Assembly (NCBI RefSeq): GCF_027587175.1
Contig: NZ_JAPCID010000070.1
Coordinates: forward strand, 1 to 36,971
Origin: Solirubrobacter deserti
Lineage (GTDB): Bacteria > Actinomycetota > Thermoleophilia > Solirubrobacterales > Solirubrobacteraceae
Direction: 5' to 3'
Length of the DNA stretch: 36,971 bases
Shown here: in pieces, positions 4,313 through 33,844 of the stretch
How the letters are laid out: each line of letters opens with the position of its first letter
Position numbering within the stretch: the first letter of the stretch is position 1
Program-made: the position numbers and the translations under genes
Notes under the pieces: model-generated
What the model was told of the DNA's origin: nothing
What the model saw: the letters and a program-made list of their open reading frames with translations, nothing else
Databases searched by the model: none

Positions 4313-5749
4313 TCACGACACCAGGCGAACTTCCAGCGCCGTGCCGTCGCCGGGCCCGATCGGCTGGCCCGCACCGCTCATCAGGCCCAGGATGCGGGCG
4401 ACGTAGCCCTGCGTCTCGGGGATGTTCGGGACGCAGCCGCAGGCCTGCACCCGGCCCGGGCCCGCGTTGTAGGCGGCGAGCGCGAGCGGGACGCTGCCGA
4501 ACTGGCGCAGCAGGTCGCGCATCATGTGCGCCTGGGCGTTGATCGCGCTCGTCGCGTCGAACGGGTCGTCGAGGCCGTACTGGCGCGCCGTCGCCGGCAT
4601 GAACTGCGCGATGCCCTGGGCGCCGGCGGGGGACGTCACGAACGGGTTGAAGTTCGACTCGGCGTAGATCTGCGCGGCGAGCAGCGTGGCGGACACGTTC
4701 CAGCGCTGAGCGGCTTCGCGCAGCGCCGGCGCGAACCGTTGCGGGACGAAGCCGGGGACGCTGCCGCGGCCGAGGCCCGCGCGGCCGTCGCCGCCGCTGC
4801 TCGTCGACCGGGCATTGAGCGTGTACCCGTAGTGCCACGGCTCCCAGCTGTAGCGCTGCGTGAAGTGGAAGCGGCGCGCGTTGGCCGCCAGCCAGCCGTA
4901 GGCCGCGGGCGGGCCGAGGTCGAGCTCGGTGCCGTTGCGGTGCAGCGACTTCCCGGGCGGCGCCACCATTCGCGGGTCCGGGTTGCGCGCGAACAGGACC
5001 GCCTGCTCGGCGTCGGAGCGGTAGCCGCTCGTGATCGTGAGCGCGACGCCGTCCTGCTTGGCCGCCGCCTCCAGGCGATCGAAGGCCTGCGCGACGTCGG
5101 GGCGCATCGGCTTGCCCTGCCGGTACGCGAGCGGGCCGTCGTAGCCACCGCCTTCGGCGAAGCCGAGGTTCGCCGCGGCGCCGAGCTGCGCCTCGGCGGT
5201 GACGAGGATGCGCGCGCGTTCCTCATCGACCTCCACCGTGTCTCTCACGGCCACCTTGATCCGCACGGGCGCGATGGTGCGCTCGTCCGGGAAGCTGACC
5301 GTCGTGTGCGGCGCGCCGTTGGCGGCGGCCACGGCGCGCGCGGCGCTGCGGCCGAGGGCGAGATAGTCCGCCTTCGTCAGGTGCCGCGGGTTCGGCCGGC
5401 GGCGGGTGAGCGCGGGCTCGAACAGCCGCCCGTAGTTCGCGTGCATCGCCTTCGCCCCGGCGACCGCGGCGAGGTCCGCCGCGCGCTGGGCCGCCGCTTC
5501 CCGGCCCACGGCTCGGGCCAGCGCGCCGGCGATCACGACCGCGATCAGCACCCCGGCCAGACCGCCGATCAGGAGAATCGACGCCTGCCCGCGCTGCGAG
5601 TGGTCGTCTTCTCGGCCCAGCGCCGAGAGATCGAGCATTCGCGGGCGCATCGCCGCCCGTGCCCACCGCGCGTGTGCGAGGTTCGCCGCTCGCGGCCACC
5701 GAGGGCGGGCGCGGCCCCGACCCGTCCGTCGCATTGCGCGTGCGGTCAT
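4313..5749 (-). CDS. TadG-like prepilin fused to VanY-type DD-carboxypeptidase and lytic transglycosylase
   Basis: A 478-residue three-part protein. Residues 51-80 (RGQASILLIGG then a long hydrophobic helix) and the following 110 residues match the N-terminus of TadG/TadE-type pilus proteins. Residues about 215-312 form a VanY (M15B) D-Ala-D-Ala carboxypeptidase domain: zinc ligands His270 and Asp277 in SLHRNGTELDL, and Glu303 and His306 in EPWHYGY; Glu275 stands where Ala is usual. Residues about 340-435 form an SLT-type transglycosylase domain: catalytic Glu364 in YAESNFNPF, GAQGIAQFMPATA, and AYNAGPG near the end. It would act outside the membrane on peptidoglycan, cutting stem peptides and glycan strands. 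It is the last gene of a four-gene operon. The ATG at 5749 overlaps the previous stop by 4 bp (ATGA) with GGGAG upstream. All key catalytic residues are present. Confidence 0.85.
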   Translation of the reverse strand: MTARAMRRTGRGRARPRWPRAANLAHARWARAAMRPRMLDLSALGREDDHSQRGQASILLIGGLAGVLIAVVIAGALARAVGREAAAQRAADLAAVAGAKAMHANYGRLFEPALTRRRPNPRHLTKADYLALGRSAARAVAAANGAPHTTVSFPDERTIAPVRIKVAVRDTVEVDEERARILVTAEAQLGAAANLGFAEGGGYDGPLAYRQGKPMRPDVAQAFDRLEAAAKQDGVALTITSGYRSDAEQAVLFARNPDPRMVAPPGKSLHRNGTELDLGPPAAYGWLAANARRFHFTQRYSWEPWHYGYTLNARSTSSGGDGRAGLGRGSVPGFVPQRFAPALREAAQRWNVSATLLAAQIYAESNFNPFVTSPAGAQGIAQFMPATARQYGLDDPFDATSAINAQAHMMRDLLRQFGSVPLALAAYNAGPGRVQACGCVPNIPETQGYVARILGLMSGAGQPIGPGDGTALEVRLVS

Positions 5750-6783
5750 CTCCTGCTCCCCTCGTGCGCGTCGACGAGCGCACGGATCGGTCCGGCCGCG
5801 CGGATGCCGGCGCGCGACAGCTCGCGGGCCAGGCCGCGCTTGAGCGGACGGGTGGGCACGATGTGGCCGAGGCCCGCGCCCGCGGCCTGCGCCAGCGGGC
5901 CGTCGGGCTCCGTCGTCACCAGGACGGTGAGGTCCTGCTCGACGAGCGCGGCGTCGATCGCCGGCGTCCGCGGGGCCGTGACCGCGAGCACGACGGGCGC
6001 CGCGAGCAGCGCGACCTGCCAGACCAGGCTCGCCAGCTCCGGCGACGCCGGATCGAGCCGCACCCACACCAGCCGCCCCCGAACCCGCGGCTCGAGTCCG
6101 TGCGCTTCCAGCCGCGCCGCGACTCGCCGGCCCGCCCCTCCCCCACTGCTCGCCTCGGGCAGCGGCGGACCGACCACCGCGACCGTCGCGACCTTCGCGC
6201 GCGTCTCCCGCCGCAGCGCGAGCGCAAGCGCCGCCGCGACGGGCTCCGCCTCGCGCGGCCGCCCCAACACGGCCGCGCCCGTGAGGACGCCCGCGTCGGC
6301 GATGAGCGCGGCCGGCGGCACGGCCGCCGCGACCGGGTTCCGCGCCCGCCGCTTGCGCCGAGTCCGTCCCGCGGGGCCCGCCGCGGAGGGCCGAGGCGAG
6401 CCCGGCGCGGCCGCGGCCGGCGAAGAAGGAGGCGCGGCGAGCGGCGGCAAGGGCACCGGGGGCGAGCCCGGCGCGACCACGGCGGACGCGAACGGCAGCC
6501 CCGGCACGAGCGCCGCGGGCGGCGGCGATGACGGGGCCGGCACGACCACGGCCGGCGCCAACGACGCGCCCGGCACACGCGCCGCGGGCGACGCCGACGA
6601 CACGCCCGGCATGACCGCCGCGGGCGACGACGACGCGCCTGGCACGAGCGCCGCGGGCGGCGGCGATGACGGGGCCGGCACGACCACGGTCGGCGCCAAC
6701 GGCGCGCCCGGCGTGGATCGGGAGCCGGCGGCGGAGGGCTCGGGCTCGGGTGGGGCGAGGAAGAAGTCGAGGGCGCGGCTCAT
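5746..6783 (-). CDS. Pro/Ala-rich protein of the tad-like operon, function unknown
   Basis: A 345-residue protein with no family I recognise. Residues about 15-150 are a Pro/Ala/Ser/Val low-complexity stretch with repeated VVVPAPSSPPPAALVPG-type blocks, the product of a recent internal DNA duplication (6503-6574 and 6641-6712). A basic patch RTRRKRRARN comes next. Residues about 155-340 look like an alpha/beta fold with repeated hydrophobic strands (KVATVAVVG, VVLAVTA, LTVLVTTEPDGP). No P-loop lysine is visible, so a TadZ/CpaE-like ATPase cannot be claimed. No signal peptide or clear membrane helix. It overlaps both neighbours by 4 bp (ATGA at each end), so it is translated with the prepilin genes and probably works with the pilus apparatus, perhaps as a cytoplasmic adaptor. 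Confidence 0.65.
   Translation of the reverse strand: MSRALDFFLAPPEPEPSAAGSRSTPGAPLAPTVVVPAPSSPPPAALVPGASSSPAAVMPGVSSASPAARVPGASLAPAVVVPAPSSPPPAALVPGLPFASAVVAPGSPPVPLPPLAAPPSSPAAAAPGSPRPSAAGPAGRTRRKRRARNPVAAAVPPAALIADAGVLTGAAVLGRPREAEPVAAALALALRRETRAKVATVAVVGPPLPEASSGGGAGRRVAARLEAHGLEPRVRGRLVWVRLDPASPELASLVWQVALLAAPVVLAVTAPRTPAIDAALVEQDLTVLVTTEPDGPLAQAAGAGLGHIVPTRPLKRGLARELSRAGIRAAGPIRALVDAHEGSRR
6503..6712. repeat. 72-bp direct duplication, copies 138 bp apart
   Basis: Copies at 6503-6574 and 6641-6712 differ at about two positions. Unit length and offset (138 = 46 codons) are multiples of three, so the frame of the Pro/Ala-rich protein is kept. It explains the duplicated protein blocks. 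Confidence 0.8.
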
Positions 6784-7193
6784 GGGGCGGACGGTCCGGC
6801 GTCGGCGTGGGCGGTTCCGGCGAGGCGGGCGGCGAGGCCCGGGATCGGCAGGGCGGTGCGGGGAAGGACGCGGACGCGCACGCGGCGACCCGTGACGGTG
6901 ATCGAGGCGCGGTTGCGGGTGGACGCCGGGAGCGCCTCGCGGGCCGCGCCGCGCGGGTCCGTCTCGCCCTGGAGGAGCGCGAGCGCGCCGGCCTGGGCGG
7001 CTTCACCGGCCTGTTCGGAGGCGGTGTAGGACGCGACGACGGTGAACCCGGCGAGCGCGAGGGCGAGGACCAGCGGCAGCAGGCCCAGGAGCTCGATCGA
7101 GGCCTGGCCGCGCTCGCCACCGGGGGTGTGTCGTTTGACTCTCGGAGAACGAGAGTCAAACGACACACCCGTGATCTCGGCCGCGCGCATCAC
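6780..7193 (-). CDS. TadE-like prepilin
   Basis: A 137-residue TadE-family protein. The signature is RGQASIELLGLLPLVLALALAGF (about residues 29-51): a short polar lead, the conserved Glu five residues into the hydrophobic helix, then a long membrane segment. The remaining 85 residues are outside and end in a beta-rich stretch (SITVTGRRVRVRVLP). TadE-like minor pilins are cut by a prepilin peptidase and support Tad/Flp pilus assembly. The ATG at 7193 overlaps the preceding stop (ATGA), which fixes the start. As a result, residues 9-24 of the leader are encoded by a 47-nt perfect palindrome (7124-7170). The rest of the Tad machinery (TadA, TadB, TadC, Flp) is not in the window. Confidence 0.8.
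   Translation of the reverse strand: MMRAAEITGVSFDSRSPRVKRHTPGGERGQASIELLGLLPLVLALALAGFTVVASYTASEQAGEAAQAGALALLQGETDPRGAAREALPASTRNRASITVTGRRVRVRVLPRTALPIPGLAARLAGTAHADAGPSAP
7124..7170. repeat. 47-nt perfect palindrome (21-bp arms, 5-nt loop) inside a coding region
   Basis: Arms 7124-7144 and 7150-7170 are exact reverse complements; the loop is GAGAA. The element is clearly less GC-rich than its surroundings (core GTTTGACTCTC). It lies inside the tadE-like gene at 6780-7193 and is read in frame as leader residues 9-24. No second copy was found in this window. Confidence 0.9.
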
Positions 7194-7786
7194 GTCTGCG
7201 GGCGGAAGTGGGAGGTGGCGCCGACCCGCCCGAGGCCCAGCGACGGCAGGATGGCCGGGACGCGGATCGACACGCGAACGTCGCCGCCCTCGCGCGTGGT
7301 GACCCGAAGGCCCCGCTCGAGTCCAGACGGGAGATGGCCGCGAGCGGCGCGTTCGGCGTCCGCGCCGACGGCGTGTGCGCGGGCGGCGGCGCGGGCCGCG
7401 ACCCGCGCGTGCCAGACCGCCTGCGCCGCCAGCACGGCCTGCCAGGCCAGCGCGACGACGACGATCACGAGCGGGAGCACCGCGATGAGCTCGACGGACG
7501 CCTGGCCGCTCGCTGAACCGGCACGAGGGCCCCGCGCCCGTCGCCCGCGGACGCGCGGAAAGGCGACGCGCACGGGCCCGCGCCGCGAGGACGCGACGGA
7601 ACCGGCGCCGCCCCGCGAGGACGCGACGGAACCGGCGGCGCGCGGCGGCGAGAAGGCGGCGCGGGCGGCATCGGGCGAGGGGCCTGGAGCGGCGGCGGCC
7701 CCCGTGCGAGACGTGAGCGGGTTCGGGCTCGCGGGTGGGGCGTGCGGGGCGGTCAGGCCTGCGGGGCGGACGGGGTGCGGCGGCAT
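7190..7786 (-). CDS. TadE-like prepilin with a long Pro/Ala/Arg leader
   Basis: A 198-residue TadE-family protein, first gene of the four-gene pilin operon. The TadE signature SGQASVELIAVLPLVIVVVALAW follows an unusually long leader of about 93 residues that is Pro/Ala-rich and then Arg-rich. The outside part is about 80 residues and contains RVTTREGGDVRVSIRVPAILP. The ATG at 7786 has GGAAA eight bases upstream; a later start would give a more ordinary leader, so the first 60-70 residues are less certain. A 30-bp tandem duplication lies within the leader. Its stop overlaps the next gene (ATGA). Processing by a prepilin peptidase just before the Gln-Ala-Ser segment is the family expectation. 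Confidence 0.75.
   Translation of the reverse strand: MPPHPVRPAGLTAPHAPPASPNPLTSRTGAAAAPGPSPDAARAAFSPPRAAGSVASSRGGAGSVASSRRGPVRVAFPRVRGRRARGPRAGSASGQASVELIAVLPLVIVVVALAWQAVLAAQAVWHARVAARAAARAHAVGADAERAARGHLPSGLERGLRVTTREGGDVRVSIRVPAILPSLGLGRVGATSHFRPQT
7583..7642. repeat. 30-bp tandem repeat in the prepilin leader
   Basis: CCGCGAGGACGCGACGGAAC begins at 7583 and again at 7613; the two 30-bp units are almost identical. In the protein this gives GSVASSRGGA followed by GSVASSRRGP. In-frame slippage duplication. Confidence 0.75.
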
Positions 7787-7836: not shown

Positions 7837-7869
7837 AGAACTGTGCCGGCTTTGTGCCGACTTGGTTCT
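7837..7869 (-). terminator. Two-tier hairpin after the small membrane protein gene
   Basis: An outer stem AGAAC/GTTCT (7837-7841 with 7865-7869), an internal loop, then an inner 6-bp stem with an ACAAA loop on the minus strand. It starts at the stop codon of the gene at 7868-8239 and separates the regulator operon from the pilin operon. No T-run follows. Confidence 0.45.
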
Positions 7870-8239
7870 AGTAGGTGCGGTAGGAGCGCCAGACGCTGTA
7901 GATGGCCCAGCCGGCGGCGCCGAGCATGAGGAGCCAGAGCATGCCGCCGAGCAGGGCGAGCTCGTTCCAGAGGCGGCTGGTGGCGATCAGGGCGAAGAGT
8001 GCGAGGGCGGAGGCTCCGTAGAGCAGGCCGCGTTGGCGTTCTTCGAGCCCGAGGATGGTGTCGCGGTGCTCCATGTAGAGGCGGTAGCCGAAGAAGAACA
8101 TGCCGCCGAGGAACAGCACCGAGAAGATGTTGCGGATCGTGTTCGCGCCGGTGCCGCCGCCTGGCACGAGCCAGACGGCAACGGCGAGAAGCAGGACGAT
8201 GCCGAAGTTGCGGATATGTGCGTTGCGGTCCGGGCCCAC
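7868..8239 (-). CDS. Small four-helix membrane protein, function unknown
   Basis: A 123-residue hydrophobic protein with about four membrane segments (near residues 12-26, 37-51, 73-88 and 94-113) and a charged loop EHRDTILGLEERQRG between the second and third. No signature motif of a known transporter or sensor was seen. The GTG at 8239 lies only 12 bp after the stop of the response regulator gene, so the two are probably co-transcribed. The Shine-Dalgarno is weak (GAAG). A hairpin follows the stop. Co-transcription hints at a role connected with the regulator, but nothing in the protein shows this. Confidence 0.7.
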   Translation of the reverse strand: MGPDRNAHIRNFGIVLLLAVAVWLVPGGGTGANTIRNIFSVLFLGGMFFFGYRLYMEHRDTILGLEERQRGLLYGASALALFALIATSRLWNELALLGGMLWLLMLGAAGWAIYSVWRSYRTY

Positions 8240-8251
8240 CGGACTTCAACT

Positions 8252-9100
8252 TTAGCCCGCGCGGGCGAAATCAGGCTCGGGAACCGTCACCGGCTCCACG
8301 GCCGGCACCGGCACGTCACTCACGCCGGGCATCGCCTCCCCGAGGGCGGCGTCCTCGACGGGCTCGGCGGAGAAGCGGTAGCCGATGCCGAAGTGGGTGT
8401 GGATGTAGCGCCAGCTGGACGACGCCTTCTCGAGCTTCGAACGCAGCTTGCGCACGAAGACGTCGACGGAGCGGTCGCCGTGGACCATCGCGTAGCCCCA
8501 GACGCGCTGGTAGATCTCCTCGCGCTGCAGGACCTGGCCCTCGGCCTCGGCCAGCAGCTGGATGAGCTCGAACTCGCGGCGGGTCAGCTCGACCGAGACG
8601 CCGTTCACGAAGGCCTGGAACTGGTCCGCGCGGATCTCCACCTCGCCGATGACGACGGGGCCCTTGTCGACGCGCACGTCGGCGCGCTTGCGGCGCCGGA
8701 CGACGGCCTCGATGCGGGCGATGAGCTCCTCGGGGTGACAGGGCTTGGTGACCCAGTCGTCAGCGCCGAGCCGCAGGCCGCGGACGCGCTGGGCGACGGA
8801 GGACTGGCCCGTGCAGACGATCACGCCCAGCCCCGGGAGACGGGCGCAGAGCTTATCCAGGTACGTCCAGCCCTGCGGGCCGAGCACCGCGAGGTCGACC
8901 ACGACCGCGTTCAGGCGCATGGCCACCATGGCGTCCAGCGGGACGGGGGACGCCAACACGCGGTACTGCCAACCCATTCCCTCCAGGCGCTTGCCGAGCA
9001 CCTGCAGGAAACCGGTGTCGGAATCGATCACCGCGAGCCGGACGGCGGACTGACCACCCGGCGCGACGCCGGCGCGTCGCTCTTCGCTCATCGTCGTCAT
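8252..9100 (-). CDS. PhoB/OmpR-type response regulator
   Basis: A 282-residue two-domain regulator. Receiver domain about 20-135: Asp26, phosphoacceptor Asp69 in VVVDLAVLG, Thr97 and Lys119 in VTKPCHPEEL. The acidic pair usual after the first strand is Asp26-Ser27 here, so one Mg-binding acid is replaced (Asp28 may compensate). Winged-helix domain about 150-240, with recognition helix DRSVDVFVRKLRSKL and wing HTHFGIGYRF. A Pro/Glu/Val-rich tail of about 40 residues follows. It probably controls phosphate-response genes: it sits just downstream of pst-phoU and has its own 11-bp GT-repeat operator upstream. No histidine kinase gene is in the window. ATG at 9100; a second ATG three codons in is possible. 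GATACT at 9118-9113 is a candidate -10. Confidence 0.88.
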   Translation of the reverse strand: MTTMSEERRAGVAPGGQSAVRLAVIDSDTGFLQVLGKRLEGMGWQYRVLASPVPLDAMVAMRLNAVVVDLAVLGPQGWTYLDKLCARLPGLGVIVCTGQSSVAQRVRGLRLGADDWVTKPCHPEELIARIEAVVRRRKRADVRVDKGPVVIGEVEIRADQFQAFVNGVSVELTRREFELIQLLAEAEGQVLQREEIYQRVWGYAMVHGDRSVDVFVRKLRSKLEKASSSWRYIHTHFGIGYRFSAEPVEDAALGEAMPGVSDVPVPAVEPVTVPEPDFARAG

Positions 9101-9251: not shown

Positions 9252-9929
9252 TCAGTTCACGTGCGACGCGTCCGAGAACTCCCGGAACTGGCCGGTGACG
9301 ACGAACGCCACCTGCTCGCCGATGTCGACCGCGTTGTCGCCGATGCGCTCGATCGCGCGCGCGACGAGCATCATCGACATCGCCCACTCGCGCCGGTCGG
9401 CATCGGTGCCGACTTCCACGGCGCGCGAGAACACGCACCGGTTCAGGCGGTTGATCTCCGCGTCCTGGCGCACCAGGTCCTCGGCGACCGCGACGTCACG
9501 CAGCAGGAACGCCTGCTTGGACTGCTCGACCTCCGAGCGCGCGAGCTTGCCCATCTTGAAGATGTACTCGAGCATCTGCTCGTCCTTGGGCGGCTCGTAG
9601 CCGACCACGGGCAGCATCTTCGCGATGTTCACGCACTGGTCGCCCATCCGCTCCACGTGCTTGATCACGTGCAGCAGCGCGGCGACGAGCCGCAGGTCCG
9701 ACGCGACGGGCGCCTGCAGCGCGAGCAGGGACAGGATCCCCTGCTGCACCTCCAGGTAGCGCCCGTCGATGCGATCGTCATCGTGGATGACGATCGAAGC
9801 GAGCTCGATGTCCTGGTGCTCGAGCGCCTCGAGGGTCCGGTCCATGGTCTTGACGACCAGGTCGATCCCGCCGAGGGCCTGCACCTCGAGCTCGCGCAAC
9901 TCCTCCTGAAAATGCTGACGACCGCCCAC
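9252..9929 (-). CDS. phoU: PhoU phosphate signalling protein
   Basis: A 225-residue PhoU, the family's usual length, made of two three-helix bundles. The metal-binding E-x-x-x-D motifs of each half are present: HVERMGDQC and AIERIGDNA. PhoU couples the state of the Pst transporter to the phosphate-sensing histidine kinase on the inner face of the membrane and dampens the response when phosphate is plentiful. It is the last gene of pstSCAB-phoU, 25 bp after pstB. The GTG at 9929 was chosen because GGAGAGAG stands just before it; the frame continues upstream into pstB, where a start would be meaningless. The response regulator gene follows, separated by an intergenic region with its own operator-like repeats. 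Confidence 0.93.
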   Translation of the reverse strand: MGGRQHFQEELRELEVQALGGIDLVVKTMDRTLEALEHQDIELASIVIHDDDRIDGRYLEVQQGILSLLALQAPVASDLRLVAALLHVIKHVERMGDQCVNIAKMLPVVGYEPPKDEQMLEYIFKMGKLARSEVEQSKQAFLLRDVAVAEDLVRQDAEINRLNRCVFSRAVEVGTDADRREWAMSMMLVARAIERIGDNAVDIGEQVAFVVTGQFREFSDASHVN

Positions 9930-9954: not shown

Positions 9955-10761
9955 TCAGCCGAATCGGCCGCTGACGTAGTCCTCGGTCTCCTTGTGCGTC
10001 GGGTTGGAGAAGATCTTCTCCGTGGTGTCAACCTCGACGAGCCGGCCGGGCTTGCCCGTGCCCTCGATGTTGAAGAACGCCGTGTTGTCGCTCGCACGCG
10101 ACGCCTGCTGCATGTTGTGCGTGACGATCACGATCGTGTACTCCTTCTTGAGCTCGGTGATCAGGTCCTCGATCGCGAGCGTGGAGATCGGGTCGAGGGC
10201 CGAGGCGGGCTCGTCCATCAGCAGCACGTCCGGCTCGACGGCCGTCGCGCGGGCGATGCACAGGCGCTGCTGCTGGCCGCCGGACAGGCCCATGCCGGGC
10301 TTGCCGAGACGGTCCTTGACCTCGTCCCACAGATTCGCGCCGCGCAGCGCGCGCTCGACGATCGCGTCCAGGTCGGACTTCTTGATCTTGCGCGAGTTGA
10401 GCTTCAGGCCGGCCGCGACGTTGTCGTAGATCGACATCGTCGGGAACGGGTTCGGCGCCTGGAAGACCATGCCGATCTGGCGGCGGACCTGGACGGGGTC
10501 GGCGTCGGCGGCGTAGATGTCGACGTCGTCGAGCAGGACCTCGCCGTCGGCGTACGCCCCCGGAACGAGCTCGTGCATGCGGTTCAGCGAGCGCAGGAAC
10601 GTCGACTTGCCGCAGCCGGAGGAGCCGATGAGGGCCGTGACCTTGTTCGGCTCGATCGTGATGTTGACGCCCTTGACCGCCAGGAAGCTGCCGTAGTACA
10701 GGTCCAGGTCGGTGGCCGTGATGCTCTTGGCCTGGACGGGCGTGTGGGCGGGAGCGGTCAT
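9955..10761 (-). CDS. pstB: Phosphate ABC transporter ATP-binding protein (first pst system)
   Basis: A 268-residue PstB. Walker A GSSGCGKS (46-53), Q-loop [10 protein letters not shown] with Gln101, signature LSGGQQQR from Leu159, Walker B VLLMDEP with Asp183-Glu184, and switch His215 in VTHNMQQ. The PNPFP after the Q-loop and the [10 protein letters not shown] segment are typical of PstB among ABC ATPases. It powers phosphate import through PstC-PstA. The ATG at 10761 overlaps the pstA stop (ATGA). Confidence 0.96.
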
Positions 10762-11930
10762 CGGATCTCCGTGCCGAAGCGGCGGTAGATGAAGCGAGCG
10801 GTGATGTTGAGCACCATGACGATCAGGATCAGCACGAGCGCGGCGGTCCACGCGCGATCGATCGACGGCTCAGGCGGCACGCCGGGGGACTTGTAGGAGT
10901 TGAAGGCGAAGACCGCGAGGTTCTGCATGCGGCCGTCGAACGGGTTCACGTTCACGGACGAGACGACGCCCACGGTGATCAGCAGCGGCGCGGTCTCACC
11001 GATGATGCGGGCGACCGCGAGCACCACGCCGGTGACGATGCCGCCGAGCGCCGTCGGGAGCACGACCTTGACGATCGTGCGCCACTTGGACACGCCGAGG
11101 GCGTAGGACGCCTCGCGCAGCGAGTTCGGGACGATCCGCAGCATCTCCTCGGTGGAGCGCACGACGATCGGGATCATCAGCACCGACAGCGCGACCGAGC
11201 CCATGATGCCGAGGCGGATGCCCGGGCCGAAGAAGATCGAGAACAGCGAGAACGCGAACAGGCCGGCGACGATCGACGGGATGCCGGTCATGACGTCCAC
11301 GAAGAACGTGAGCGCGCGCTTGAGGCGGCCCTGGCCGTATTCCTGCAGGTAGATCGCGGCGAGGATGCCGATCGGCACCGAGATCAGCGTCGCGCAGCCC
11401 GTGATGATCAGCGTGCCGTAGATGGCGTGGACCGCGCCGCCGCCCTCGCCGATGACGCCGCGCATCGACCACGTGAAGAACTCGCCGTCGAAGCGCGCGG
11501 CACCGCGCGAGACGACGGTGTAGAGCAGCGAGATGAGCGGCGCGAGCGCGAGCGCGAAGGCGGCGACGATGGCGTAGGTGAAGCCGCGGTCGGTGGCGCG
11601 GCGCTTGCCCTCGACGGCGCGCGAGACAACGTACTGCGCGGCACCGCCGACGACGACCGTGCCGACGACCCAGAGGGCCCAGTTCCACCCGATGGCCGCG
11701 ACGAGGCCCGCCATCACGACGGCGGTCGCGGCGACGATGCCCCACGGCGCCCACCCCGGGAGGACCTTGCCGGCCACCTGCACGGGCGGACGCACGCGCG
11801 CCGGCGCGGCGACCGTATGAGCGTCCTCGGCGTGCGCGTGGGCGTTGGACGCCAACGAGCCGAGCCCCGGCACGTCGGCGTTGGGGTCGGTGTCGGTCAC
11901 GTCTTCCCGTTGAGTCGGTTCGGTGCTCAT
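10758..11930 (-). CDS. pstA: Phosphate ABC transporter permease PstA (first system), N-terminally extended
   Basis: A 390-residue PstA, about 90 longer than usual. The core (from about residue 117) has the ABC permease segments and the EAA-loop signature [22 protein letters not shown]. The extension holds a polar His/Asp-rich region (1-55) and two extra predicted membrane helices (about 62-80 and 83-102). PstA pairs with PstC to form the channel; the extra helices are probably peripheral. ATG at 11930, one base after the pstC stop, so translation is coupled. The 3' end overlaps pstB by 4 bp. Confidence 0.95.
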
Positions 11931-11931
11931 C

Positions 11932-12879
11932 TCAGATACGCATCTGTCGGTTGATCACCGTGCGCGCGGCCATGTTGACCACGAGCGTGACGGCGAAGAG
12001 GACAAGACCAGAGGCGATCAGGGCGTTGACCGCAAGACCGGAGGACTCGGGGAAGTCGAGCGCGATGTTGGCCGCGATGGTCGAGGGGTTGCCCGAGCCG
12101 ATCAGGTCGAACGTGATCGCGCCGGAGACCGAGAGCACGATCGCAACGGCCATCGTCTCGCCGAGCGCGCGGCCGAGGCCGAGCATCGACGCCGAGATGA
12201 TCGCGGACTTGCCGAACGGCAGCACGGTGAGGCGGATCATCTCCCAGCGCGTGGCGCCGAGGGCGAGCGCGCCCTCCTGCAGCCGGCGCGGCGTCTGCTC
12301 GAACACCGAGCGCGTAACCGCCGTGATGATCGGCAGGATCATCACCGCCAGCACGGCGGCGACGACCAGCATCGTGCGCCCGGTGGCGGACGCGGGACCC
12401 TCGAAGAACGGAAGCCAGCCGAGGTTGTCCTCGAGCCAGCGCAGCAGGCCGACCGAGGCCGGGCCGAGCACCGCGATGCCCCAGAGGCCGTAGATGACGC
12501 TCGGGATCGCGGCCAGCAGGTCGATCAGGTAGCTCATCGGCTGCGCGATCCGCCGCGGGGCGATGTGGCTGATGAACAGCGCGACCGCGACCGACAGCGG
12601 CACCGCGATCACGATGGCGATCGTGGCCGCGATGATCGTGCCGAAGGTCAGCGGCCAGATGTAGGCGAGCAGGTTCTCGCCGCCCGGGAGATCCTCGGCA
12701 CTGGCCGTGATGGCCGGCCAGGCGCGGACGATCAGGAAGAGGGCGACACCGGCGAGCGTGGCCAGGATGACCACGCCCGCTCCGGTCGCGAGGCCTCGAA
12801 AGACGCGGTCCCCGGCGCCGCCCCGGGCGGGCCCGCCGCGAACTACTGACTGCAGGTCGTCGACGTTGGTCGAACTCAC
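11932..12879 (-). CDS. pstC: Phosphate ABC transporter permease PstC (first system)
   Basis: A 315-residue PstC with about six membrane helices and the permease EAA motif EGALALGATRWEMIRLTVLP. The segments LLAAIPSVIYGLWGI and GLGRALGETMAVAIV are hallmark PstC sequences. It lies 38 bp downstream of pstS and is followed by pstA after one base. The start is a GTG (12879) with a poor Shine-Dalgarno; AGGAG lies too far upstream (15 bp), so efficiency may be lower than for pstS. It forms the phosphate channel with PstA. Confidence 0.95.
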   Translation of the reverse strand: MSSTNVDDLQSVVRGGPARGGAGDRVFRGLATGAGVVILATLAGVALFLIVRAWPAITASAEDLPGGENLLAYIWPLTFGTIIAATIAIVIAVPLSVAVALFISHIAPRRIAQPMSYLIDLLAAIPSVIYGLWGIAVLGPASVGLLRWLEDNLGWLPFFEGPASATGRTMLVVAAVLAVMILPIITAVTRSVFEQTPRRLQEGALALGATRWEMIRLTVLPFGKSAIISASMLGLGRALGETMAVAIVLSVSGAITFDLIGSGNPSTIAANIALDFPESSGLAVNALIASGLVLFAVTLVVNMAARTVINRQMRI

Positions 12880-12917
12880 GTCTATCTCAGCGCTCCTGTG
12901 CTTCTTCGGGTGGTGGG

Positions 12918-14036
12918 CTAGCTCGCGGCGATCGCGTCGACCGCGGGCTGCACCTTCTGGCGAACAGCATCGCTGATCGGGGCCGAGCCCGCGTTCGAGG
13001 CGGCCGCTTCCTGTCCCTCAGGGCTGATGATGTAGTTGATGAAGCCCTTGACGAGCGCGCCCTGGGCCGCGTCGTCGTACTGCGTGCAGGCCATAATGTA
13101 GGAGACGAGCACGATCGGGTACGTGCCGGCCTCGGTCGTCTCGCGGTTGAGGTCGTACGTGAACACGTGCGCACCCGGGTCGTCGGTCTCCTGGGACGCC
13201 TCGACGATCTTGGCCGCGGCCTCGGGCGTCGGGCCGACGAACTCCTCGCCGACCTTGATGCTGGCCGTGCCCAGCTCGCCGGCCTGAGAGGCGTCGGCGT
13301 AGCCGATGGCGCCCGCGCCGGCCTTGACGGCGTCCACGACGCCGGACGTGCCCTGCGCCGCCTCGCCGCCCTTGACGGGCCAATCGCCGCTGATCTCGAA
13401 GTCCCAGACGTCAGGGGCCACGGCGGCGAGGTACTCGACGAAGTTCTCCGTCGTGCCCGACTCGTCGGCGCGGTTGACCACCGTGATGCGGTCGCTCGGC
13501 AGCTGCGCGTCCGGGTTGTCGGCCTTGATGGCCGCGTCGTCCCAGGTCTTGATCTCCTGCTTGAAGATCTTCGCCACCGTCTCCGGCGAGAGCTGCAGGT
13601 TGTCGACGCCCTCGAGGTTGTAGATGACGGCGATCGGCGAGATGTAGGCCGGAATCTCGATCAGGTTGTCGGGGCCGCCGCAGCGCTCCTGGGCGCCGGT
13701 GAGCTCCTCGTCGGCGAGGTGCGCGTCGGTGCCGCCGAAGGCGGTGCCGCCGGCGACGAACTGCTCGCGACCGCCGCCCGAGCCCACCGGGTCGTAGGAG
13801 ATGGTGGCGCCGGGGTTGGCCTCGCCGAAGCCGGCGATCCAGGCCTGCATGGCGGCTTCCTGCGAAGACGCACCGGCGCCGGCGATGTTGCCCTCGAGCT
13901 CCTCCGCCGCGGGCGTGCTCTCACCACCGGCAGCCGGGGTGTTGGTCGGCTCCTCCTCGTTGGAGGCACCGCAGGCAGCCAGCGTCAGCGCGGCGGCGAA
14001 GGCCACGCACGCCGGCATGAACCGCTTCGAAATCAT
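12918..14036 (-). CDS. pstS: Phosphate-binding lipoprotein PstS (first system)
   Basis: A 372-residue periplasmic-type binding protein anchored as a lipoprotein: signal peptide with lipobox TLAAC (Cys22), then an acidic Pro/Glu/Thr linker of about 25 residues. Phosphate-binding motifs are GAGASSQEAAMQ at the start of the fold and NRADESGTTENF in the middle; GAIGYADAS follows. It catches phosphate outside the membrane and passes it to PstC-PstA. ATG at 14036 with AAGGAAGGG upstream. A four-unit array of 11-bp GT repeats (14096-14139) lies 60-100 bp upstream, consistent with phosphate-starvation control of the whole operon. Confidence 0.96.
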   Translation of the reverse strand: MISKRFMPACVAFAAALTLAACGASNEEEPTNTPAAGGESTPAAEELEGNIAGAGASSQEAAMQAWIAGFGEANPGATISYDPVGSGGGREQFVAGGTAFGGTDAHLADEELTGAQERCGGPDNLIEIPAYISPIAVIYNLEGVDNLQLSPETVAKIFKQEIKTWDDAAIKADNPDAQLPSDRITVVNRADESGTTENFVEYLAAVAPDVWDFEISGDWPVKGGEAAQGTSGVVDAVKAGAGAIGYADASQAGELGTASIKVGEEFVGPTPEAAAKIVEASQETDDPGAHVFTYDLNRETTEAGTYPIVLVSYIMACTQYDDAAQGALVKGFINYIISPEGQEAAASNAGSAPISDAVRQKVQPAVDAIAAS

Positions 14037-30158: not shown

Positions 30159-30965
30159 ATGAAGCGCTCCCGTCTCCTGCTGCTCGCCGCCGGCACTCTC
30201 GCCGCGGCCACGTTCCCGACCGCTGCCCACGCCCAGTCGAAGATCCTCATGAGCGGATCGACCTCGGTCTACCCGCTCACGGCTGATCTCATCAAGGCGT
30301 ACAAGAAGAACAACCCCAACACGAGGTTCACCGTCTCCCAGGGCGGCTCGGACGTCGGCATCGGGGACGTCGCGCGCAAGCGCGTGAACATCGGTATGTC
30401 CTCGCGTGACCAGCAGTCCGGTGACCCGGGCGGGCTGAACTTCTACAAGATCGCGCGCGACGGCGTGTGCATCGCGACGCACCCCGACAACAACCTCGCG
30501 AACCTGTCCCAGCAGAACGTGCAGGACATCTTCTCGGGCAAGGTCCGCCGCTGGCAGGACGTGCCCGGTGCGAAGGTCACGGGCCCGATCAACCTGAACG
30601 TCCGTACGCAGGCCTCCGGTACCCAGGACGCGTTCCGCAACATCTTCATGGGCCCGTCGCTGAACGTGACGCCGAGCGCCTCCCAGAAGGCGTCCAACGG
30701 TCTCGTCCAGACCGCGATCCGCAGCGACCGCAACGCGATCGGCTACCTCGACGTCAACTTCACCCAGGGCACCTACCCCGTGCCGTACAAGGGCGTCGCG
30801 TGCAACCTGCGCAACGCCAAGTCGGGCCAGTACCCCGGCGTCCGTAACTTCTGGTTCGTCACGGTCGGCCCCGCCAAGGGCGAGGTCAAGAAGTTCATCG
30901 ACTTCGCGCGCTCTTCCTCGACGCAGAGCAGCGTCGTCGCGAAGAAGTACGTGCCGTACCGGTAG
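30159..30965 (+). CDS. pstS: Phosphate-binding protein PstS (second system)
   Basis: A 268-residue secreted binding protein with a type I signal peptide ending AHAQ rather than a lipobox, unlike PstS1. The N-terminal phosphate site reads MSGSTSVYPLTADL, followed by VSQGGSDVGIGDVA and MSSRDQQSGDP. The central loop RTQASGTQDAF and IGYLDVN match PstS. The ATG at 30159 was chosen because it gives a proper signal peptide (MKRSRLLLLAAGT); the frame extends upstream without coding character. The stop shares one base with the GTG of pstC2 (TAGTG). Without a lipid anchor it may be cell-wall-held or released. Confidence 0.93.
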   Translation: MKRSRLLLLAAGTLAAATFPTAAHAQSKILMSGSTSVYPLTADLIKAYKKNNPNTRFTVSQGGSDVGIGDVARKRVNIGMSSRDQQSGDPGGLNFYKIARDGVCIATHPDNNLANLSQQNVQDIFSGKVRRWQDVPGAKVTGPINLNVRTQASGTQDAFRNIFMGPSLNVTPSASQKASNGLVQTAIRSDRNAIGYLDVNFTQGTYPVPYKGVACNLRNAKSGQYPGVRNFWFVTVGPAKGEVKKFIDFARSSSTQSSVVAKKYVPYR

Positions 30966-31921
30966 TGAGCGGCTGGTGGTCTGACCGGCGCGTCGGACCG
31001 GCGCTCGGCAGCGCGGGCGTGCTCGTGCTGGCGATCATCGCGGGGATGACGGTCTACGTCTTGCGAGAGGCGTGGCCGTCGTTCTCCGCCAACGGCCTGG
31101 CGTGGTTCGGCACCGGCGGCGACGCCAACGTGCAGCTGGAGAACATCTTCCGCTCGGAGCCGCCGTTCGAGTACATGCTGCGGGCCTGGCCGCTGCTCTA
31201 CGGGACGCTGCTGTCCTCGGGTGGCGCGGTGATCTTCGGGCTCGTCCTGTCCACGCTGACGGCCGTGTTCATCGTGGAGTTCGCGCCGCCGTCGGTGGTC
31301 CGCATCCTCGAGCCCGTCGTGCGGCTGCTCGCCGGTGTGCCGAGCGTGATCTACGGGCTGATCGGCGTGCTCGTGCTCGTGCCGTTCCTCAATGACCACC
31401 TGATCTCCACCGAGCGCAAGGAGTCGGTCTTCTACGTGATCCAGCTGACGGGTCAGAGCCTGCTCGTGGCCACGGCGCTGCTGACGATCATGATCGTGCC
31501 GATCATGATCGCGATCGCGGTCGACGCCCTGCGCTCGGTGCCGTCTTCGTGGACCGAGGGCGCGCTCGCCCTCGGTGCCAACCGCATGCGCGTGATGTGG
31601 ACGATCGCGCTGCGCGCCGCGCGTCCCGCGCTGGTCGCCGGCGCCGTGCTCGCGCTGGCGCGCGCGCTGGGCGAGGCGATCATGCTCGCGATGGTCTCGG
31701 GCGGCGTCATCTTCGCGCCCAACCCGCTCGACGGAAGCACGTTCTTCTTCGAGCCGATCCAGCCGCTCGCGGCCGCGATCGTGCAGGGCGCCGAGGGCAT
31801 CACGGTCAAGCCGTACGGGCAGACGCTGTTCGCCTTCGCCGCCGTGATCATGGTCTCCAGCGTCGGCCTCTCGATCACCGGCTGGGCCGTGCGCCGCCGG
31901 CTGCGGAGGTTCGCGGCGTGA
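30965..31921 (+). CDS. pstC: Phosphate ABC transporter permease PstC (second system)
   Basis: A 318-residue permease with about six membrane helices. LLAGVPSVIYGLIGV and LALARALGEAIMLAMV are PstC hallmarks; the EAA loop is EGALALGANRMRVMWTIALR. The GTG at 30965 overlaps the pstS2 stop by one base. About 60-70 bp separate it from pstA2, the only real gap in this operon. That gap holds a small ACCGGC-GAA-GCCGGT hairpin near 31955-31970, perhaps an RNA-processing or attenuation point. Confidence 0.94.
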   Translation: MSGWWSDRRVGPALGSAGVLVLAIIAGMTVYVLREAWPSFSANGLAWFGTGGDANVQLENIFRSEPPFEYMLRAWPLLYGTLLSSGGAVIFGLVLSTLTAVFIVEFAPPSVVRILEPVVRLLAGVPSVIYGLIGVLVLVPFLNDHLISTERKESVFYVIQLTGQSLLVATALLTIMIVPIMIAIAVDALRSVPSSWTEGALALGANRMRVMWTIALRAARPALVAGAVLALARALGEAIMLAMVSGGVIFAPNPLDGSTFFFEPIQPLAAAIVQGAEGITVKPYGQTLFAFAAVIMVSSVGLSITGWAVRRRLRRFAA

Positions 31922-31991
31922 GATCCGCGAAGCGATCTCTCTGCCGAACTGGCCCCGCACCGGCGAAGCCGGTCGCGGACAGGTGGCGCCC

Positions 31992-32975
31992 GTGAGCGCG
32001 CTGGCGACACCCCCGCAGGAGCGCCCGCCGCGCCTGCGCACCGACCCGTCCGGGTCCTGGCGCGCGTGGCCGCTGCGCGACCGCGTCCTGCTCGGCCTGT
32101 GCTGGGCGGCCGGTCTGGCGCTGATCGCGATCGCCGCGCTGATCGTCCTCTACATGCTCGTCAAGGGCGTGCAGTACCTGCGGCCCGAGCTGCTGTGGGA
32201 CCGGCCCGAGGCGTCGATCGACCAGTCGCGGTCCGGCGGCTTCCTGGACCCGATCCTGGGCACGGTCCTGATCGTCGTCGGCGCGCTCGTGATCGCGGCG
32301 CCGCTCGGCGTCGCGACCGCCGTGTGGCTGACCGAGTACGGCAAGCCCAAGTGGCTCGCGCGCATGGTGGAGTCCGGCATCGAGGTGATCGCGGGTACCC
32401 CGTCGATCGTGCTCGCGCTGTTCGGCCTCGCGTTCTTCGCGCAGGGCGGGCTCGGGTTCCTGTCGGCGACGGGCGAGGGCGGCGCCGTGTTCGGGCGCTC
32501 GCTGCTGATCTGCTGCGCCGTGCTCTCGCTGGAGGCGCTACCGCTGATCGTGGGCGCCACGCGTGAGGGCCTGCTGTCCACGCCGCGCCACGTGCGCGAG
32601 GCGTCGTACGCGCTGGGCAAGACGCGCGCGGCGACGATCCACCGCGTGCTGCTGCCGGTCGCGCGCCCGAACATCGCGACGGGCTGCGCGCTCGGGATGG
32701 GCCGTGTCGCCGGCGACACGGCGGTCGTGCTGCTGCTCGGCGGCGGCACGCTGCAGCTGACGACCAACGGCTCGATCCCGGGCCTGAACTATCTGCAGGG
32801 CACGGGCTCGACGCTCACGACGTACGTGTACGCGAACTCGCCCTCGGGCGAGGGCGGCGCGCCCGAGAAGGCGTACGCGGCAGCGTTCCTGCTGCTGGCG
32901 CTGGTGTTGGTGTTGAACTGGGCGGTCGACCGGATCGCGCGCGGTAGCAACGAGAGGCTGGGATGGACCCGCTGA
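31992..32975 (+). CDS. pstA: Phosphate ABC transporter permease PstA (second system)
   Basis: A permease of about 327 residues with six predicted helices. Typical PstA segments are SGGFLDPILGTVLIVVGAL, EVIAGTPSIVLALFGLAFF and the EAA loop [22 protein letters not shown]. Unlike PstA1 it has no extra N-terminal helices. The GTG at 31992 is preferred because GGACAGG lies eight to nine bases before it; a GTG three codons upstream (31983) is possible but has no ribosome site. The 3' end overlaps pstB2 by 13 bp. Confidence 0.93.
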   Translation: MSALATPPQERPPRLRTDPSGSWRAWPLRDRVLLGLCWAAGLALIAIAALIVLYMLVKGVQYLRPELLWDRPEASIDQSRSGGFLDPILGTVLIVVGALVIAAPLGVATAVWLTEYGKPKWLARMVESGIEVIAGTPSIVLALFGLAFFAQGGLGFLSATGEGGAVFGRSLLICCAVLSLEALPLIVGATREGLLSTPRHVREASYALGKTRAATIHRVLLPVARPNIATGCALGMGRVAGDTAVVLLLGGGTLQLTTNGSIPGLNYLQGTGSTLTTYVYANSPSGEGGAPEKAYAAAFLLLALVLVLNWAVDRIARGSNERLGWTR

Positions 32976-33844
32976 TGCCCCCGCCGCCGATCCGGCGGAT
33001 CGTCGTCGACGCGCCGCACGTGGTCGTGCCGGCGCCGGAGCCCGAGACCAACGGCGCCGTCCGGATGCGCCCGCGCGTCACGACCGACGTGGTCGAGCGC
33101 ATGCGCGTCGAGGAGCTCACAATCACCTACGGCCCGAAGGTCGCCGTCAACGGCGTCAACCTGCCCGTCCACCAGGGCGAGGTGCTGGCGCTGATCGGCC
33201 CGTCGGGCTGCGGCAAGACGACCTTGCTGCGGTCGCTGAACCGGCTCGTGGAGCTCACGCCGGGCGCCGCGCGCGGCGGCAAGATCGTGCTCGACGGCGA
33301 CGACGTGGACGCGATCGAGGTCACCAGCCTGCGCCGGCGGATCTCGATGGTCTTCCAGCAGCCGAACCCGTTCCCGATGTCGATCTTCGACAACGTCGCC
33401 TACGCACTGCGCGAGCAAGGCTCCAAGCGCGTCAAGCGGGCGGAGCTGATGGCGCCGGTGCGCAACGCGCTCGAACGCGCGGGCCTGTGGGACGAGGTCG
33501 GCGACGACCTGGACCGGCCCGCGCTGCGCATGTCGGGCGGCCAGCAGCAGCGGCTGTGCATCGCGCGGGCGCTCGCCGCCGACCCCGAGGTGTTGTTGCT
33601 CGACGAACCGTGCTCGGCGCTCGACCCGCGCTCGACGGCCACGATCGAGGAGCTGATCCTGCAGCTGCGCGAGTCGCTCGCGGTCGTGATCGTCACGCAC
33701 AACCTGCAGCAGGCGTACCGGATCGCCGACCGGGTCGCGTTCATGTACCTGGGCGAGCTCGTCGAGTACGGGCTGGCCGAGGACGTCTTCGAGCGCCCGC
33801 AGCACACACGCACCGCCGAGTACGTGGGTGGCGCGTTCGGATGA
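32963..33844 (+). CDS. pstB: Phosphate ABC transporter ATP-binding protein PstB (second system)
   Basis: A 293-residue PstB with an extra N-terminal Pro/Val-rich segment of about 45 residues before the ABC core. Walker A GPSGCGKT (79-86), Q-loop MVFQQPNPFP, signature MSGGQQQR (Met where Leu is usual), Walker B LLLDEP (Asp194, Glu195), switch His226 in VTHNLQQ. The ATG at 32963 has GAGAGG upstream; an ATG four codons later is also possible. Its stop overlaps the following lipoprotein start (ATGA). No phoU follows in this operon. Confidence 0.95.
   Translation: MDPLMPPPPIRRIVVDAPHVVVPAPEPETNGAVRMRPRVTTDVVERMRVEELTITYGPKVAVNGVNLPVHQGEVLALIGPSGCGKTTLLRSLNRLVELTPGAARGGKIVLDGDDVDAIEVTSLRRRISMVFQQPNPFPMSIFDNVAYALREQGSKRVKRAELMAPVRNALERAGLWDEVGDDLDRPALRMSGGQQQRLCIARALAADPEVLLLDEPCSALDPRSTATIEELILQLRESLAVVIVTHNLQQAYRIADRVAFMYLGELVEYGLAEDVFERPQHTRTAEYVGGAFG

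Follow-up and report, generated by a model that had tools for sequence, protein, structure and literature searches.

How a filament-building machine passes through the peptidoglycan wall of its own cell is the question raised by one gene in a 36,971-nucleotide stretch of the Solirubrobacter deserti genome (assembly GCF_027587175.1, contig NZ_JAPCID010000070.1; hereafter the window). The gene encodes a predicted pilin-like module followed by two predicted peptidoglycan-cutting domains, a VanY-type peptidase and an SLT lytic transglycosylase, and is referred to below as the fusion. We give an even chance to the interpretation that the fusion is a minor pilin of modular, tip type in a Tad-like, apparently Flp-less filament machine, where it would bring wall hydrolases to the place at which the filament crosses the peptidoglycan. 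The fusion may show how a pilus machine opens its own way through the wall.

The fusion gene lies on the minus strand, with its ATG at 5749 and its stop codon at 4313-4315, and encodes 478 residues in an unbroken reading frame. In Pfam, PF02557 (VanY) matched residues 215-310 (E 2.7e-15, 56.8 bits vs a cut-off of 25) and PF01464 (SLT) matched residues 343-435 (E 1.7e-22, 79.6 bits vs a cut-off of 21.3), and in NCBIfam the Rv3654c TadE-like family TIGR03816 matched residues 52-105 under its cut-off (E 1.4e-6). The initial annotation had placed a TadG-type N-terminus, a VanY domain, and an SLT domain in a single 478-residue chain; the open frame and the family matches, sub-threshold for the pilin part, bear this out. 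The VanY part may be a D,D- or an L,D-carboxypeptidase, which the sequence does not separate. An alternative in-frame ATG at residue 38 is favoured by a simple gene caller, which also supplied the gene calls outside the window, and because the start codon is uncertain, the leader before Gly54 would have 16 to 53 residues.

The fusion is not a product of sequencing or assembly. A sequencing error joining separate genes, a doubt raised by the initial annotation, is ruled out, since another assembly of the species contains a gene 100% identical to this one and full-length relatives occur across the order Solirubrobacterales. In an alignment of 53 full-length sequences (that of the window plus 52 more, selected from 68 open reading frames (ORFs) spanning most of the query, with duplicates dropped and partial, split, and N-terminally divergent copies omitted), His270, Asp277, Glu303, His306, Glu364, and Ser365 were each found in 53/53 sequences. 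The catalytic residues listed in the initial annotation, which comprise all of these except Ser365, are thus correctly placed as well as invariant. The ratios of nonsynonymous to synonymous substitution (dN/dS; Nei-Gojobori, five within-genus comparisons with this genome) were 0.26-0.37 for the pilin module, 0.10-0.28 for VanY, 0.23-0.36 for SLT, and 0.44-1.33 for the linker, indicating that the three parts are maintained under purifying selection and that the linker is loose.

The search of other genomes for the three-domain architecture, proposed in the initial annotation, found it through the order and in a sister family of the same class. Matches to the fusion at E <= 1e-5 were observed in 188/232 genomes of the order, and among the 112 of the 232 with a completeness of 90% or more and a contamination of 5% or less, to which the co-occurrence analysis below was restricted with the other 120 left out, 98 matched at E <= 1e-5 and 78 at E <= 1e-40. 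Long matches were seen in Conexibacter arvalis, Candidatus Siliceabacter maunaloa, three Solirubrobacterales metagenome genomes, and one unplaced actinobacterial genome. When a profile of the fusion was run against 396 phylum-sampled genomes, 217 matched at E <= 1e-10; among the matches listed, all three parts were matched solely in the order and the one sister family, and every match listed outside these two groups covers the SLT part alone. The sister family contributed seven full fusions and one partial copy without the N-terminus in the match, with the catalytic residues retained in 8/8 copies.

The N-terminal module carries a conserved prepilin-type site and, after it, a long hydrophobic helix. 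Gln55 is present in 53/53 and Gly54 in 51/53 of the aligned sequences, and residue 59, at +5 after Gly54, is Glu in 0/53 (Leu in 40, Val in 4, Ala in 3, Met in 2, and other residues in four). Among the sister-family copies with an N-terminus, Gly54 was found in 7/7, Gln55 in 6/7, and Glu at +5 in 0/7. The conservation of Gly54 and Gln55 in the order, together with the lack of Glu at +5, points to a prepilin-type site, not just any membrane anchor. An AlphaFold2 model of the fusion built on seven sequences (mean predicted local distance difference test score, pLDDT, 63.8) shows helices at residues 52-105 and 126-143 and strands at 149-152, 163-174, and 177-191, followed by the two enzyme domains; the N-terminal part modelled alone (76.3) has a 62-residue helix and the same helix-then-strands order as the full model. 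In structure comparisons, the VanY part matched solved VanY/LdcB structures (Foldseek), and the SLT part matched solved Slt and MltF structures (Z about 14).

The fusion is the last gene of an operon in which it is preceded, in order, by two TadE-like genes (TadE1 and TadE2), both with a prepilin-type site (G|QASVE and G|QASIE, respectively), and a gene for a Pro-rich protein. The translational coupling of these genes to the fusion, noted in the initial annotation, is seen as a TGATG overlap between TadE1 and TadE2, an ATGA overlap between TadE2 and the Pro-rich gene, and a further ATGA overlap between the Pro-rich gene and the fusion. A motif scan of 65 fusion loci, which include the two halves of one split gene (L053 and L054), found at least two TadE-like motifs upstream in 56 of the 60 loci that show at least 5 kb upstream, with some background in the scan because 15/65 loci gave three or four motifs. 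A small hydrophobic protein is encoded upstream of the TadE pair in 53/60 fusion loci (order and sister family), and the one in the window, of 123 residues (7868-8239), is a possible component of the machine.

Many genomes of the family to which the window belongs have the operon beside genes for a response regulator, PhoU, and Pst, an arrangement seen less regularly elsewhere in the order; in the sister family, the operon stands between genes read as thrS and uvrC. The operon itself is conserved, not its surroundings. The proximity to the response regulator and phosphate genes favours an alternative explanation, in which the N-terminus is a recycled pilin-like membrane anchor and the fusion is an ordinary wall-maintenance hydrolase, co-regulated with those neighbours and independent of TadABC. 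Such an anchor accounts poorly for the retained G-Q prepilin-type site and for the TadE-like motifs upstream of the fusion, which are also found in the sister family despite its different neighbours.

The genes of a Tad-type motor are located elsewhere in the genome, on contig C74, so the supposition that the genome lacks Tad machinery altogether, which the initial annotation had allowed for, is ruled out. The single TadA-type ATPase of the genome (PF00437, 207 bits vs a cut-off of 24.9) scores best to TIGR03819 in NCBIfam (333 bits, under the cut-off of 373). It is directly followed by TadB and TadC, both above the cut-off of PF00482, and CpaB is encoded about 5 kb upstream of tadA (SAF PF08666 above its cut-off, RcpC PF16976 just below, and TIGR03177 at 59 bits for a cut-off of 71). 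Downstream of tadABC lie mraZ, mraW, ftsI, murE, and murF, named from reading their translations. Of 17 loci of this type in which the downstream side could be read, 16 have mraZ in the same orientation and within about 4 kb of tadABC; the 17th (L101) has a canonical Flp locus between the two. The arrangement of tadABC upstream of mraZ-mraW-ftsI-murE was observed in all four sampled families of the order (L035 8275-15260 and relatives).

The remaining secretion ATPases of the genome are of the PilB and PilT types (PF00437), and one of them lies beside an AIM24-family gene; the loci of these ATPases and of the prepilin peptidase described below are L036, L037, and L115. ComEC is present in the genome. 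Some relatives carry a canonical Tad locus with Flp, TadE, TadG, TadZ, and CpaB. Near one of these, in G070 (L101 11540-13264), a 574-residue protein with another SLT domain is encoded beside a prepilin peptidase, and it is a possible second wall-cutting enzyme near a Tad locus, unfused to a pilin.

Within the order, the fusion and the motor tend to occur together. In a table compiled by hand from the search listings, the fusion was scored as present at E <= 1e-40, a threshold that also admits some copies that are split or partial (G061, G169, G194, G089), and the motor was scored as present at a TadB identity of at least 33% or a TadA identity of at least 60%. The mraZ-linked type of motor was found in 72/78 fusion genomes versus 3/34 others among the 112 high-quality genomes, uncorrected for phylogeny. 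In the sister family, a TadA match was found in 8/8 fusion genomes, with a TadB of this type adjacent in 7. This co-occurrence in the order argues against an anchor that is independent of TadABC.

Conversely, several observations weigh against a tip-type minor pilin of a Tad-like machine. The Fisher p of 3e-18 overstates the association between fusion and motor because phylogeny is uncorrected. Six of the 78 fusion genomes are without such a motor, 3/34 others have the motor and no fusion, and genomes under the quality limit (e.g. G056, G062, G171, G172, G174, G215) have TadA without a strong fusion match. The link is looser outside the order: in the same class, a TadA match was seen in 7/16 searched genomes that have no full fusion, at least two of which (G552, G434) have an adjacent TadB at 36-42% identity. 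The fusion operon and the motor genes were never adjacent in any locus examined. The sole prepilin peptidase found (A24) sits in a cluster read as type IVa, with pilM, pilN, and pilO as neighbours, and the genome apparently holds a separate type IVa pilus. The Pfam family matches are weak for all three pilin-like genes, since PF13400 (Tad) matched residues 54-100 of the fusion at E 0.029, under its cut-off, and the PF07811 matches of both TadE-like genes are likewise sub-threshold, as are those to NF041390/TIGR03816. When the pilin module was compared with the PDB, Foldseek returned nothing at E <= 0.001 and no pilin was among the matches listed, and in a second structure comparison the best match was to a monophosphatase (Z 8.6). 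Because no solved pilin was matched, the pilin assignment is based on the sequence and the order of helices and strands; pilin families are possible on these features despite the missing structural match. Finally, no match to PF04964 (Flp) or PF14029 (DUF4244) was found in the genome at E <= 0.01.

Of these observations, the unlinked positions of the operon and tadABC, the six fusion genomes without a motor of this type, and the motors without a fusion in same-class genomes would all be expected of an independent, membrane-anchored hydrolase. Weighed with the prepilin-type site, the TadE-like neighbours, and the co-occurrence, we regard this alternative as rather unlikely.

An ordinary Flp pilus is unsupported here, by profile and by motif scan alike. 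In a motif scan of 12 tadABC loci of the mraZ-linked type, no Flp-like ORF was observed, and the two hits lay inside TadB and antisense to another gene; the same scan did recover Flp from L101 and L110, the two canonical loci it covered. Run against the whole genome, the TadE family profile matched TadE1 and missed TadE2, so that the absence by profile of further TadE- or Flp-type genes is soft. DUF4244 matches in 14/232 genomes were weak, with one above the cut-off, and were not counted as Flp. With Flp counted as present at E <= 1e-3 and weaker matches uncounted, Flp was found in 14/112 high-quality genomes. Five of these 14 carry the fusion and the mraZ-linked motor as well; the other nine lack the fusion and have no motor of that type by the thresholds used, and three of the nine were checked by locus (L110-L112). 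These counts indicate that, in the order, the fusion follows the motor without a recognised Flp, not the canonical Flp locus.

The Tad pilus of the initial annotation is therefore upheld in part: the Tad ATPase, TadB/C, CpaB, and TadE-like genes were located, and no Flp was recognised by profile or motif. For this reason we call the system Tad-like and not a Flp pilus. The main building block may be a TadE subunit, the machine may make a short pseudopilus alone, or Flp may have diverged beyond recognition.

The lack of a recognised Flp, together with the position of tadABC upstream of mraZ, is also consistent with a device for division or cell shape, in which a Tad-like piston would shift the two hydrolases across the wall or along it as the cell grows or divides, with no external filament. 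This explanation is improbable in our judgement, since the fusion operon itself was never seen by the mraZ cluster, two genera (g17, g19) divide without the fusion (E <= 1e-40) or, among the matches listed, a motor of this type, and the mraZ adjacency may be inherited gene order.

In the interpretation of the fusion as a tip-type minor pilin, its N-terminus would enter the membrane in the manner of a prepilin, with probable processing at Gly54/Gln55. The fusion and the two TadE pseudopilins would form an initiating complex at the tip, which TadA/TadB/TadC would push outwards. Where the filament emerges, the predicted VanY activity would trim stem peptides and the predicted SLT activity would cut glycan strands, the target presumably being the cell's own wall. 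In this superfamily, filament assembly begins with a tip complex whose capping subunit has no Glu5 (PMC10191384). TadEFG are the proposed components of the tip, in which TadG carries a modular domain at its C-terminus (PMC12075869). The initial annotation had placed the hydrolases at the pilus base; the tip is likelier, because the fusion, like the capping subunit, lacks Glu5 and because TadEFG are the proposed tip. DNA uptake is suggested as the likeliest use, since tad genes are required for natural transformation in the actinobacterium Micrococcus luteus (PMC4322843).

A more specific form of this mechanism, which we put forward tentatively and hold to be somewhat doubtful, is a Flp-less Tad-type pseudopilus that drills its own way: a short TadE piston capped by the bifunctional hydrolase, whose tip would cut its own exit for DNA uptake or secretion. 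If true, the fusion would act as a wall opener built into a Tad-type machine. An offensive role, in which a filament would carry the hydrolases onto neighbouring cells as a Kil-like contact weapon, has a precedent in Myxococcus, whose Tad-like Kil pili kill prey and have exchangeable tips of the TadEFG type (PMC12075869, PMC8460266). This role is very improbable here, given that the hydrolases sit on a minor subunit predicted to be membrane-inserted and that no Flp filament was recognised.

Features of the fusion operon and its neighbours in the window
Feature	Positions	Strand	Remarks
Three-domain fusion gene (TadG-like pilin module + VanY peptidase + SLT lytic transglycosylase)	4313..5749	-	478 residues
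TadG/Rv3654c-like pilin module, residues 54-200	5150..5590	-	G54-Q55 prepilin-type site, no Glu at +5; long helix up to about residue 105-110, then a helix and three strands
VanY-type zinc peptidase domain, residues 208-310	4820..5128	-	His270, Asp277, Glu303, His306
SLT lytic transglycosylase domain, residues 335-460	4370..4747	-	Glu364-Ser365
Pro-rich protein, 345 residues	5746..6783	-	possibly degenerate TadZ-like; no P-loop seen
TadE-like pseudopilin 2, site G/QASIE	6780..7190	-	start ATG 7190 or GTG 7193
TadE-like pseudopilin 1, site G/QASVE	7190..7786	-	start uncertain
Small hydrophobic, probably membrane protein, 123 residues	7868..8239	-	upstream of TadE pair in most relatives
Response regulator (receiver + winged helix)	8252..9100	-	adjoins operon in many same-family relatives
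PhoU	9252-9929	-	named from translation; neighbour, thought outside the machine
PstB, PstA, PstC, PstS phosphate transporter genes	9955-14036	-	named from translations; neighbours, thought outside the machine

The Pro-rich protein of the window matched no Pfam or NCBIfam family, and a candidate identity is suggested by its relatives. In the family f4, the gene at the same operon place has a deviant P-loop-like stretch (e.g. GxGASTLARALA). In the sister family, a TadZ-like protein precedes TadA, and in f4 a similar protein precedes the fusion; the f4 set and the TadA-linked sister-family set were matched by hhalign with a probability of 95 and an E of 3e-8 (five and seven sequences). Direct family searches with the f4 TadZ-like proteins gave weak P-loop matches or none, and the window's protein was tied to the f4 set by its position in the operon and by visual comparison, without a search match. 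The Pro-rich protein may thus be a displaced TadZ whose P-loop was lost here, and if so, the fusion operon would be tied to the distant motor genes. Farther along the window, on the plus strand, a second phosphate-transporter-like set was observed at 30159-33844, 32-52% similar to PstC, PstA, and PstB.

Interrupted copies were observed for both the fusion and the motor. Genomes of two genera (G061, G169) have the fusion gene broken at the same codons, which follow Trp-His-Tyr in the VanY zinc motif. The interrupted copy in G061 lies at L051 5086-17194, with a gene carrying serine-recombinase domains near the far junction; between the flanks of this insertion, the longest shared word had 11 bases and was not at the junction pair. 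In G169 (L053 8378-10663 with L054 9280-10437), the gene is split into halves, with a partial ORF of the same blast cluster as the G061 recombinase after the break. In G308 (L256, L260), tadA is split over about 30 kb, and an adjacent ORF is recombinase-like by eye. Competence genes are favoured by mobile elements, and mobile elements may favour this system as well.

Dedicated lytic transglycosylases are known from other trans-envelope machines, where VirB1, IpgF, and FlgJ are separate secreted or scaffold proteins. The fusion is predicted to serve a machine in the same way, by opening a gap in the wall; unlike these, its enzyme is covalently part of a pilin-like subunit and is paired with a VanY peptidase. 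The actinobacterial Rv3654c-type tad locus has a layout represented by TIGR03815/03816/03819, and the system described here resembles it in that TadA scores best to TIGR03819 and the fusion's N-terminus matches TIGR03816, both below the family cut-offs. It differs from that locus in that its genes stand at two sites, no Flp/DUF4244 pilin was recognised, and the TadG-like protein is enlarged by two enzymes. The covalent pilin-hydrolase link is conserved over the order and the sister family, and point mutants of the active sites would therefore directly probe the need for local wall cutting in Tad-type assembly. The finding also draws attention to a Tad-type motor located upstream of mraZ and of division and wall-synthesis genes.

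Among the literature matches listed (titles and abstract starts, with few subscription journals covered), no paper on a pilin fused to wall hydrolases appeared, and a search on Solirubrobacter and pilus gave nothing relevant. The words peptidoglycan and hydrolase are absent from the text of PMC12075869, and a 2025 paper states that none had been reported for Tad pili, in the sense of a peptidoglycan hydrolase (PMC12307814). The architectures of modular pilins number hundreds (PMC6916266), and enzyme modules may already be among them. The fusion resembles the TadG/KilN minor pilins of the tip in its PF13400/TIGR03816-like N-terminal helix, its TadE neighbour, and its large C-terminal module (PMC12075869), and it differs from these tips, as they are described in PMC12075869 and PMC12307814, in carrying predicted peptidoglycan hydrolases. 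With modular pilins in general, it shares an N-terminal pilin module and a large, independent C-terminal domain, as in the subunits proposed for filament tips (PMC10191384, PMC6916266). Whereas the modular pilins described in the cited passages carry adhesion domains, the fusion would be a modular pilin with enzymes, two peptidoglycan-cutting domains within a Tad-like system.
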